From positions 1-49,978 of the forward strand of contig JAGHVB010000037.1 in the NCBI GenBank assembly GCA_018064525.1: 49,978 bases of DNA, written 5' to 3'. A model generated the notes under the pieces. The model saw nothing but the letters and a program-made list of their open reading frames with translations, made no database searches and was not told where the DNA came from. How positions within the stretch are numbered: position 1 is the first letter of the stretch; each line of letters starts with the position of its first letter. This document shows positions 30,539 through 33,502 of this stretch, piece by piece. This DNA comes from Candidatus Treponema merdequi. GTDB taxonomy: Bacteria; Spirochaetota; Spirochaetia; Treponematales; Treponemataceae. Both the position numbers and the translations under genes were made by a program.

Positions 30539-30625
30539 ATGTTGACAGCAAAAGTAAATAACCGTAACATTACTCATTACTCATTACTCATTACTCATTA
30601 CTCATTGCTCATAGAAAAATTTTAA
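30539..30625 (+). CDS. Possible 28-residue peptide written by a heptamer array
   Basis: ATG at 30539 with AAGGA nine bases upstream and a promoter before it. The second half of the peptide is the translation of tandem TACTCAT heptamers (HYSLLITHYSLLI pattern). Because the repeat dictates the sequence, a functional peptide is doubtful; it is listed because it has both promoter and SD. Confidence 0.2.
   Translation: MLTAKVNNRNITHYSLLITHYSLLIEKF
30571..30612. repeat. TACTCAT heptamer array (six units)
   Basis: Five TACTCAT units and one TGCTCAT in perfect tandem. The seven-base period is shared with the AATTCCT/AATTAGG arrays at 1864-1972 and 2427-2461. Confidence 0.9.
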
Positions 30626-30764: not shown

Positions 30765-32093
30765 ATGAGAAAAGTTTTAGGAATCGGGGCTGCCGTTTTG
30801 TGCAGCCTTGTGGTTTTGTTTACGGGATGTTCTGCGCCGAGTGAACCGAGTTCACCGAGTATGCCAAGTACTCCAAGTACTCCAAGTACGCCAAGTGCAC
30901 CGGGTTCATCTGATCCAATATTGGAAAAAATCGAAATTACAGCAGAGCCTGCAAGAAAAGAATATTACGTGGGTTCATCACAAATTAATACAATAGGAAT
31001 GATAGTAAAAGCAACATATAATAACAGTACAACCATAGATGTGACAGAAGAAGTTAAAATAAACGGATTTGATTCAAGTGCAGCAACAGATAGCAAGACA
31101 ATTACAGTAACTTATGGTGAAAAGAGTGCTGATTTTATAATAAAAATAGTACCATCACAACCTTATTCATTTCATAATACTGTAACTGTTCTCCCTTCAG
31201 GTACAACCGGATCATATGGTACAGAAGGAAGTTATGTTGAATTTGGTGACTGGCCGCAGAATGTAGTTTCAGAAGCAGATGCAGAAATATTAGAACTTGA
31301 AAATTCTAAAGATAAAATAACTCGCGGTTATATGGAATTTGTTCAGGGATTAGATGGAAACTACTATGTAAAACATAAACTCAAATGGTATAAAGTAATG
31401 CCAATCAAATGGCGCGTAGCAGACACAGCATACGATGTAGATGGAAAAAATGGAAGTGCAACAGGTAAACTTTTAGTAGCCGAAAGTATTCTTACAGGAA
31501 ATGTTCCATATTATGAGAAAACTGGATACAAGCGTATAATAAACGGTGGAATTTCTTCGAACAACTATACGTACAGTCAGATTCGTGCATATTTAAACGG
31601 TAATACATATATATATTATAGTGGTTTTGGTTCAAATGAAGAAAAATCAACGTGGCAAGGAAAAGGCTTTTTACAGACAGCATTTACAAGTGATGCAATA
31701 GATAATATTATAATAACAAAAGTAGATAATTCTTCACTTTCTACTACAGATAAAGATGGAAAATTAAAACCAACTAATACTGGTAGCATCTCGACAGACG
31801 ACAGAATCTTTTTGCTTAGCGAATACGAAGTAACAAAATACAGTAAAGAAGCATATGACGAAAGCGGAAAAGGAAATAGCCGTATAAGATTTGCAACAGA
31901 TTTTGCAAAAGCAAACAATGTTAACCAGAATACAACCGACGGCTTCGGCAGTATTTGGTGGCTCCGCACGCCTGGCCCTGATGGCGAAGCAAGCGCGCGC
32001 ATTGTCTTAGCTTCTGGTTATGCCGGCTCCACCGGTGGTGTTGTTTACGAAACTGATTACGGGGTTGTTCCTGCTTTGTCAATTTCATTTTAA
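30765..32093 (+). CDS. Surface lipoprotein: Ig-like (Big_3) plus C-terminal DUF6273-like domain
   Basis: A 442-residue lipoprotein. Signal peptide with lipobox FTGC (Cys near 22), then a low-complexity Pro/Ser linker made of PST repeats. Residues about 50-128 (KEYYVGSSQ ... ITVTYGEKSADFIIKI) match a Big_3 Ig-like domain. The rest, from FGDWPQN to WWLRTPG and GVVPALSISF, resembles DUF6273, related to formylglycine-enzyme/C-type-lectin folds. The last 50 codons are clearly more GC-rich than the rest of the gene and vary at positions that are Asn-rich in relatives, suggesting a hypervariable tip. GAGAGGAG is a strong SD. A hairpin precedes and an intrinsic terminator follows it. Confidence 0.75.
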   Translation: MRKVLGIGAAVLCSLVVLFTGCSAPSEPSSPSMPSTPSTPSTPSAPGSSDPILEKIEITAEPARKEYYVGSSQINTIGMIVKATYNNSTTIDVTEEVKINGFDSSAATDSKTITVTYGEKSADFIIKIVPSQPYSFHNTVTVLPSGTTGSYGTEGSYVEFGDWPQNVVSEADAEILELENSKDKITRGYMEFVQGLDGNYYVKHKLKWYKVMPIKWRVADTAYDVDGKNGSATGKLLVAESILTGNVPYYEKTGYKRIINGGISSNNYTYSQIRAYLNGNTYIYYSGFGSNEEKSTWQGKGFLQTAFTSDAIDNIIITKVDNSSLSTTDKDGKLKPTNTGSISTDDRIFLLSEYEVTKYSKEAYDESGKGNSRIRFATDFAKANNVNQNTTDGFGSIWWLRTPGPDGEASARIVLASGYAGSTGGVVYETDYGVVPALSISF

Positions 32094-32132
32094 CAAAATC
32101 ATATTCTCTATTAATTGTTAAAACTCATTTGT

Positions 32133-32266: not shown

Positions 32267-33502
32267 TCATTTAAAAAATTCAACCGCAGTTATAACCTTA
32301 AATTTCTGTCCTTCGAATGAGATTGTATCTTTTTGATTGAATGTTACGATTACTCCTTCGAGAGATGGAAATTTTTTGCAGGTGAGTGCAAGACCACGGA
32401 TTTCCCGTTCGCGGTTTTCGTTTGTAAGTTCGTAGCAGACTTGAACTGCTTTCTGGGGAGTTGTAGAAGGACCGTAAAGAAAATCACATTCAAAATTGCT
32501 TTCGCTGTAATACCAGATGTTTTTTGTTTCCTGCCGAATTTTTTCAAAAACTGCATTTTCAAAAAGACGTCCTTTATCTTTTGATGACGAAAGTGTAATT
32601 GTGTTTATCATTCCTGTATCAATGCAATAAACTTTTTTTGGATTTACAGATTGAACTTTTGCCGAATAATCAAATTTTGGAACAAATGAAAAAAGATAAG
32701 AATTTTCCAGAAATGAAAGATAATCCAAAATTGTTGCAGTTGTTTTTAACCCAAGCTGAGAAGAAAGTTTTGTCCCGGAAATTAAGTTTCCGCAATTAGA
32801 ACATAAATACGCTGCCAGTGTTCGTACAGATTTTGAATCTTTTATTCCATAGCGCACGATTATATCTCTAAAAAGAATATCATCAAAAAGCTGTTTTAGA
32901 ATCTGATTATTCTGGTATTGCAAAAATTCCGGAAATCCACCTTCAGTTAAATATTTGTCAAAAGCTTCTGTATTTTTTTTGAATTTATAAAATTTGCAGT
33001 ATTCGCTAAAATTAAACGGAAAAATTTCATAATCTAAATGACGGCCTGTTAATCTTGTTCCAAGTTCCTGACTTAAAAGAGAAGCGTTTGAACCTGTTAC
33101 GGTAACTAAAAATCCTTCTTTTAATTTTGAATTAACGTATGTTTCCCAGTTTTCTACAATCTGAATTTCATCAAAATATAAATCTTTTGTCATATTGTGA
33201 TTTTTTCTAAACTCTTCAATCGCTTCGTCAAGAATTGCAAAATCCGATGTATTAAAATCAGAAAGAACTGGTTCGTCAAAGTTCAGATAAAATGCATCGC
33301 GTGAATTGAGTTTTATATCCTGACTGACAAAGGTGCTTTTTCCACAACGCCTGATTCCAGTAATAATTCTTGCAAATTGCGGAACAGGTCGTTCAATAGA
33401 TTTATTACATTCGCGTGTAACTTCAGAATTATTTTTTTCTGATTGTAAAATTAGGGAACGCTGTTTGTTTACAGTTGTTAATATATCCTGTTTTGTAGTC
33501 AT
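32267..33502 (-). CDS. AAA_14/DUF4143 ATP-binding protein
   Basis: A 411-residue ATPase of the AAA_14 plus DUF4143 type. Walker A is GIRRCGKST near residue 49, Walker B LYFDEIQ near 108, sensor-like VTGSNASLL near 136; the DUF4143 part contains YLTEGGFPEF and a C-terminal nuclease-like fold region (FECDFLYG). Such genes are widespread accessory genes of unknown role and often form large paralogous families. It lies in the accessory island. The region upstream of the ATG has an unusual set of palindromes and no good SD. Confidence 0.85.
   Translation of the reverse strand: MTTKQDILTTVNKQRSLILQSEKNNSEVTRECNKSIERPVPQFARIITGIRRCGKSTFVSQDIKLNSRDAFYLNFDEPVLSDFNTSDFAILDEAIEEFRKNHNMTKDLYFDEIQIVENWETYVNSKLKEGFLVTVTGSNASLLSQELGTRLTGRHLDYEIFPFNFSEYCKFYKFKKNTEAFDKYLTEGGFPEFLQYQNNQILKQLFDDILFRDIIVRYGIKDSKSVRTLAAYLCSNCGNLISGTKLSSQLGLKTTATILDYLSFLENSYLFSFVPKFDYSAKVQSVNPKKVYCIDTGMINTITLSSSKDKGRLFENAVFEKIRQETKNIWYYSESNFECDFLYGPSTTPQKAVQVCYELTNENREREIRGLALTCKKFPSLEGVIVTFNQKDTISFEGQKFKVITAVEFFK

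Follow-up and report, generated by a model that had tools for sequence, protein, structure and literature searches.

The window analyzed here is a 49,978-nt stretch of DNA from Candidatus Treponema merdequi, which corresponds to a single contig (C72) of a draft genome assembly (G000; 2.70 Mb, 87 contigs, 99.8% complete). It contains the gene of a 442-aa lipoprotein whose C-terminal end had been proposed in an earlier note, from the sequence alone, to be a variable region (VR) of a diversity-generating retroelement (DGR). The features of this gene are the following (coordinates, strand, description).

30765..32093, +, DUF6273 lipoprotein gene encoding a protein of the DGR target type (ORF, 442 aa; Big_3 and DUF6273 matches)
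30765..30830, +, predicted lipoprotein signal MRKVLGIGAAVLCSLVVLFTGC up to the lipobox Cys (LFTGC, residue 22), as read from the sequence
30945..31142, +, Big_3 Ig-like domain, residues 61-126 (Pfam PF07523, E=3.4e-5)
31539..32084, +, DUF6273 domain, residues 259-440, with a predicted C-type-lectin-like fold (Pfam PF19789, E=7.9e-18)
31956..31973, +, conserved WWLRTP framework, 5' edge of the variable region
31974..32060, +, VR core, almost certainly DGR-derived, 29 codons of which 24 are NNY; the adenine positions of the templates of congeners are randomised
32061..32080, +, conserved 3' edge GGGGTTGTTCCTGCTTTGTC (GVVPALS), at the position of the initiation-of-mutagenic-homing (IMH) site and common to VRs of the genus
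32078..32103, +, decayed 3' hairpin with its left arm GTCAATTTCAT kept and its right arm unpaired

The protein belongs to the DUF6273 family (PF19789 score of 65.3 bits for a cut-off of 23.5) and also contains a Ser/Pro linker. Its gene adjoins an AAA_14/DUF4143 ATPase gene (32267-33502, - strand), and similar ATPase genes flank VR-type genes in G007, the nearest congener among the genomes compared. A short tandem repeat, actcattactcatt, is located 5' of the lipoprotein gene (30571-30610) and a G007 contig stops just short of this repeat.

Fold and relatives of the target protein

An AlphaFold2 model of positions 31164-32090 (pLDDT 87, pTM 0.89) was compared to known structures. VIA-align matched it to the N-terminal region of an IgA peptidase (9qa6, Z 17.1), then to the T. 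denticola variable protein TvpA (2y3c, Z 6.7), the lectin CEL-IV (Z 5.2) and formylglycine-generating enzymes (Z 4-5); the IgA peptidase 9qa6 was the single significant match of Foldseek against the PDB. Although moderate, these Z values agree with the C-type-lectin-like fold published for DUF6273 DGR targets (PMC10743442). As in DGR targets, the protein presents variable residues encoded by NNY codons at the C-terminus of a predicted C-type-lectin fold. Like the protein of the window, TvpA is a Treponema lipoprotein with a C-type-lectin fold that is varied by a DGR, but the two proteins share only 13% identity and TvpA is part of a complete DGR. DUF6273 domains are also found in the targets of Faecalibacterium prophages and in the "tentaclins" (PMC11792537, PMC10743442); the VR of the prophage targets is located at the C-terminus of DUF6273 (PMC11792537) and tentaclins have C-type-lectin-like models (PMC10743442). 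These are phage proteins encoded beside a DGR, whereas the window encodes a chromosomal lipoprotein without an adjacent DGR.

Composition of the tip

The earlier note had pointed to a higher GC content and many NNC/NNT codons at the tip, and both are present. GC content rises from 36% to 58% (0.583 in 31956-32075 and 0.358 in the remainder of the gene), and 24 of the 29 codons between WWLRTP and GVVPALS end with C or T relative to 51% upstream (binomial p=4e-4). The highest count in any upstream 29-codon stretch is 21. Because another 120-nt stretch of the gene, in its N-terminal half around the Ser/Pro linker, also reaches a GC content of 0.55, the GC shift is weak evidence by itself and we rejected it as an indication of a DGR. 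The note had placed the variable region at 31938-32093; a variable tip is indeed present, but its hypervariable core is narrower (31974-32060). The 3' edge GGGGTTGTTCCTGCTTTGTC would serve as the IMH site based on its position; the templates of congeners carry the same segment, with GGATTTG where VRs have GGCTTTG.

Complete DGRs in congeners

Complete DGRs were identified in three rumen Treponema MAGs that a genome search placed in the same genus: G034 (locus L161), G057 (L041) and G097 (L037). Their targets belong to the same DUF6273 family (WWLRSP…GVVPALS). In G034 and G057, the VR gene is followed by an Avd-like gene, an A-rich template repeat (TR) and the reverse transcriptase (RT), in this order. 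The locus of G097 also has VR, TR and RT, and an Avd-like reading frame separates its VR from its TR. RVT_1 matches were obtained for the RTs, which possess the motifs PMGNQSSQ and YMDD. NCBIfam DivGenRetAVD matches the accessory proteins of G034 (E=4e-15) and G057 (E=4e-14), in both cases below its cut-off, and Pfam bAvd also matches that of G034. The TRs contain the sequence WWLRSPNYNNNNNARNINNDGNNNNNNVNNNNVGVVPDL, and a 3' hairpin follows the VRs. These systems share the VR family and its flanking codons with the tip of the window; they possess RT, Avd and TR, whereas neither RT nor TR was found in the genome of the window.

In GTDB, the records of this RT clade are rumen Treponema MAGs, with remoter relatives in Lachnospiraceae and other Clostridia. 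No additional WWLRSP-type Treponema TR was found at the loci of related RTs on GTDB contigs. The viral contigs of IMG/VR, which were scanned with short peptide patterns only, yielded a single weak relative of the RT (34% identical) and so gave no sign that phages carry the RT clade of DUF6273-type DGRs. The RTs of G166 and G160, which look retron-like in our reading, did not match the DGR-RT profile and were set aside as not belonging to the DGR clade found here. Another DGR RT (L159, G102:C210, 3593-4424) is present in two frames of 193 and 104 aa and is an apparent pseudogene.

An adenine-directed footprint in the variable region

Within the congeners, cognate VRs and TRs differ almost exclusively at template adenines: 28/48 adenines relative to 0/84 other bases, 21/43 relative to 2/80 and 18/42 relative to 0/84. 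We compared the VR of the window to the TR of a relative (L043) and found differences at 34/42 adenines and 22/84 other bases (p=4e-9). Since 22 of the 84 non-adenine positions differ, the TRs of congeners are relatives rather than the parent of this VR. The same comparison for the VR of a second DUF6273 gene of the genome, located on contig C86, revealed differences at 19/40 adenines and 13/82 other positions (p=3e-4). Of the 18 AAC/AAT codons in the TR, the window copy retains the first, second and third positions in 3, 4 and 12 cases, respectively, and its third position is a pyrimidine in 16 of the 18 codons; at the remaining 26 codons, the corresponding matches are 20, 20 and 15.

This pattern extends to the family. 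Across 26 members, the identity at third positions minus the identity at first and second positions is negative in the domain (-0.25) and positive in the VR (+0.10). None of 10000 bootstraps reached the excess of the VR, and stretches of the domain, whether resampled or contiguous, all stayed far from it. Such an inverted codon-position pattern is expected from adenine-directed rewriting of AAY codons, not from selection at the protein level. An excess of variation among relatives at codon positions 1 and 2 is present in the tip, both across the 26-member family and in the paralogous C86 gene and its ortholog described below. The earlier note had held that its reading would fall if the genome contained neither template nor RT and if the tip showed no excess of variation; no template or RT was found in the assembly, yet the excess of variation is clear.

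A second copy and its ortholog in a sister species

Within its own genome, the tip has its next best DNA match in the DUF6273 gene of C86, over 42 bp of the 3' edge. The C86 gene adjoins one that we take to encode an arginyl-tRNA synthetase. A third DUF6273 gene of this genome (C10) has no such tip. G007 is ~86-89% identical to the window at the nucleotide level around it, and a gene on its contig C15 is, by its neighbourhood, the ortholog of the C86 gene. Identity between these orthologs at codon positions 1/2/3 is 0.57/0.53/0.87 in the VR and 0.84/0.81/0.77 upstream, which indicates that a largely shared template was used to rewrite both tips, at about the time of the species split or later. 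Fewer third positions are common to the VR of the window and the C86/G007 tips (0.37-0.47), suggesting that the former came from another template or has drifted. A DNA search for the window gene in G007 recovered only the C86 ortholog, and the G007 contigs break at positions 30544 and 33556 of the window. A search of the window protein against the collection of genome contigs found no relative.

G007 also carries a decayed DGR RT (L154, C42, 5459-5731; 91 aa with one stop) beside two other VR-type genes. This RT belongs to another clade (L039-type, 60% to L039) and we did not retain it as evidence for the loss of a DUF6273-type DGR in the G007 lineage.

Search for a reverse transcriptase and template in the assembly

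The earlier note had reported no RT in the window, and none was found in the whole assembly either: RVT_1 had no match at E<=1 and the DGR-RT profile had none at E<=10. Searches of the assembly for an A-rich TR, with the window VR and the TR of a congener as DNA queries, matched only VRs, and the TR query matched the C86 VR alone. The draft thus contains neither the RT nor the A-rich TR of a functional DGR, and the tip is an orphan in this assembly. Because it is an 87-contig draft with breaks inside repeated target-type genes, an RT could still lie in a gap or on an element that was lost.

The breaks fall inside a near-identical chitobiase-like repeat of target-type genes (ends of C9 and C52, starts of C73 and C8), and some target genes are split as a result. 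Five other genes of this genome, L176 (C73), L177 (C8), L180 (C18), L182 (C20) and L183 (C56), have formylglycine-generating-enzyme-like tips (RGGxY...AVSxR...GFRVCRS) that resemble another family of DGR targets, and no RT was found in the assembly for these genes either. L181 (C10) and L188 (C28) have C-type-lectin-like tips (YCSSSQY... and YWSCCQH...) of a kind found in other DGR targets.

Loss of the 3' hairpin

Retrohoming of the phage BPP-1 requires an inverted repeat immediately downstream of the VR, for which the stem structure matters and the sequence does not (PMC3240598). Many VRs of the genus, including those adjacent to an RT, present a near-perfect hairpin across the stop codon, which is absent in several orphan VRs. 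The loops are TTTA, AATA and others, instead of the GRNA of phage DGRs. Based on its position and conservation, the hairpin probably has a target-site role here as well. The C86 gene and its G007 ortholog have perfect stems of 11 bp and 14 bp, respectively, with different sequences (0/2000 shuffles each). The stem of the window copy reaches only 5 bp (399/2000 shuffles), and this copy lacks the 3' hairpin of a DGR target (PMC3240598). The left arm, which is part of the coding sequence, persists, and the right arm no longer pairs with it. We read this absence as decay, and the tip is accordingly described as derived from, and not as working as, a DGR VR.

Orphan tips elsewhere in the genus

VRs of the same kind without a usable RT are found in the near-complete genomes G175, G143 and G128; those of G175 and G143 were read as VRs and that of G128 was recognized by its DNA match to a TR. 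In G119, an orphan VR whose hairpin is broken occurs along with a fragment of an RT from the same clade (59% identity), which contains two stops. Leftover targets are already known in T. denticola, where genomes without RT and TR keep target genes, many of them lipoproteins, that were read as remnants of lost DGRs and whose VRs diverge chiefly at adenines from TRs found in other isolates (PMC4891356). The tip of the window resembles them in having a target gene and an adenine-biased VR with no RT or TR found. It differs in that the target is a DUF6273 protein from a Treponema genus of rumen type, its parental TR was not recovered and comparison with an intact paralog reveals that the 3' hairpin was lost.

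Discussion

Our results suggest that this tip is an orphan, probably frozen VR of a lipoprotein that was formerly rewritten by a DGR whose machinery was lost or never present in this genome; we assign a probability of roughly 0.7 to this explanation. The proposed DGR-type VR is borne out by a footprint of adenine mutagenesis relative to the TRs of congeners with the same target family, but not as part of a working system. Under this explanation, an RT would have copied an A-rich TR, template adenines would have been converted to random bases and the resulting cDNA would have been substituted for the final part of the gene. RT, Avd and TR, the core machinery, would then have been lost from the genome, or it was never there and the gene arrived already diversified; loss in place and acquisition of a diversified gene are inseparable here. 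The 3' hairpin that serves in target recognition has likewise disappeared from the window copy. The leftover VR may still be translated as a fixed binding surface, with the lipoprotein presumably exposed at the cell surface and its tip binding a ligand. That the tip is a DGR product is nearly certain; it is also probably an orphan in the organism itself and, since its own target-site hairpin is lost, probably frozen.

The earlier note had envisioned a remote target, and a DGR (RT, Avd and TR) in an assembly gap or on an unassembled plasmid or prophage might indeed still rewrite the tip. The fragmentation of the assembly at repeated target-type genes leaves room for it, the 11-bp hairpin of C86 is still perfect, which is unexpected for a long-dead system, and the rewriting of C86 and its sister ortholog dates from about the time of the species split or later. 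We nevertheless consider this scenario unlikely: a 99.8%-complete assembly gave no RVT_1, DGR-RT or TR match, the RT is also missing from other near-complete congeners with such VRs and IMG/VR contained only one weak relative of it. Moreover, even a live DGR should reach the window tip poorly once its hairpin is lost. More doubtful still, VR lipoproteins without RT and TR could be common in the genus because they are diversified in trans by mobile or intermittent DGRs, or because they spread already diversified. If so, the repertoire would be common to the population and not made genome by genome.

It is very improbable that the tip diversified without any retroelement, through point mutation and ordinary antigenic or ligand-driven selection. 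Fast evolution is common in surface lipoproteins and the window tip has also changed at 22/84 non-adenine bases. However, third positions are the best conserved in the VR while first and second positions are randomised, the reverse of the domain; matching TRs and RTs lie beside the same VR family in congeners, and the adenine-specific cognate pairs contradict this alternative for the family. The conserved flanks around a variable middle recall cassette systems, but replacement of the tip by gene conversion from silent donor copies is likewise very improbable. No donor copies are present in the genome, in which nothing but the 42 bp of the C86 3' edge gave a further significant match to the tip.

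Considered as an orphan left by a former DGR, this tip belongs to a kind already reported in T. denticola (PMC4891356), and it constitutes a clean case of what follows DGR loss: two tips in one genome, with and without hairpin, along with congeners that possess the full system. The case is well suited to studying DGR loss, and an order of decay (RT and TR, then the hairpin, then third positions) becomes testable from sequences. Finally, it suggests that many diversified surface proteins escape DGR surveys in which the RT is the starting point.
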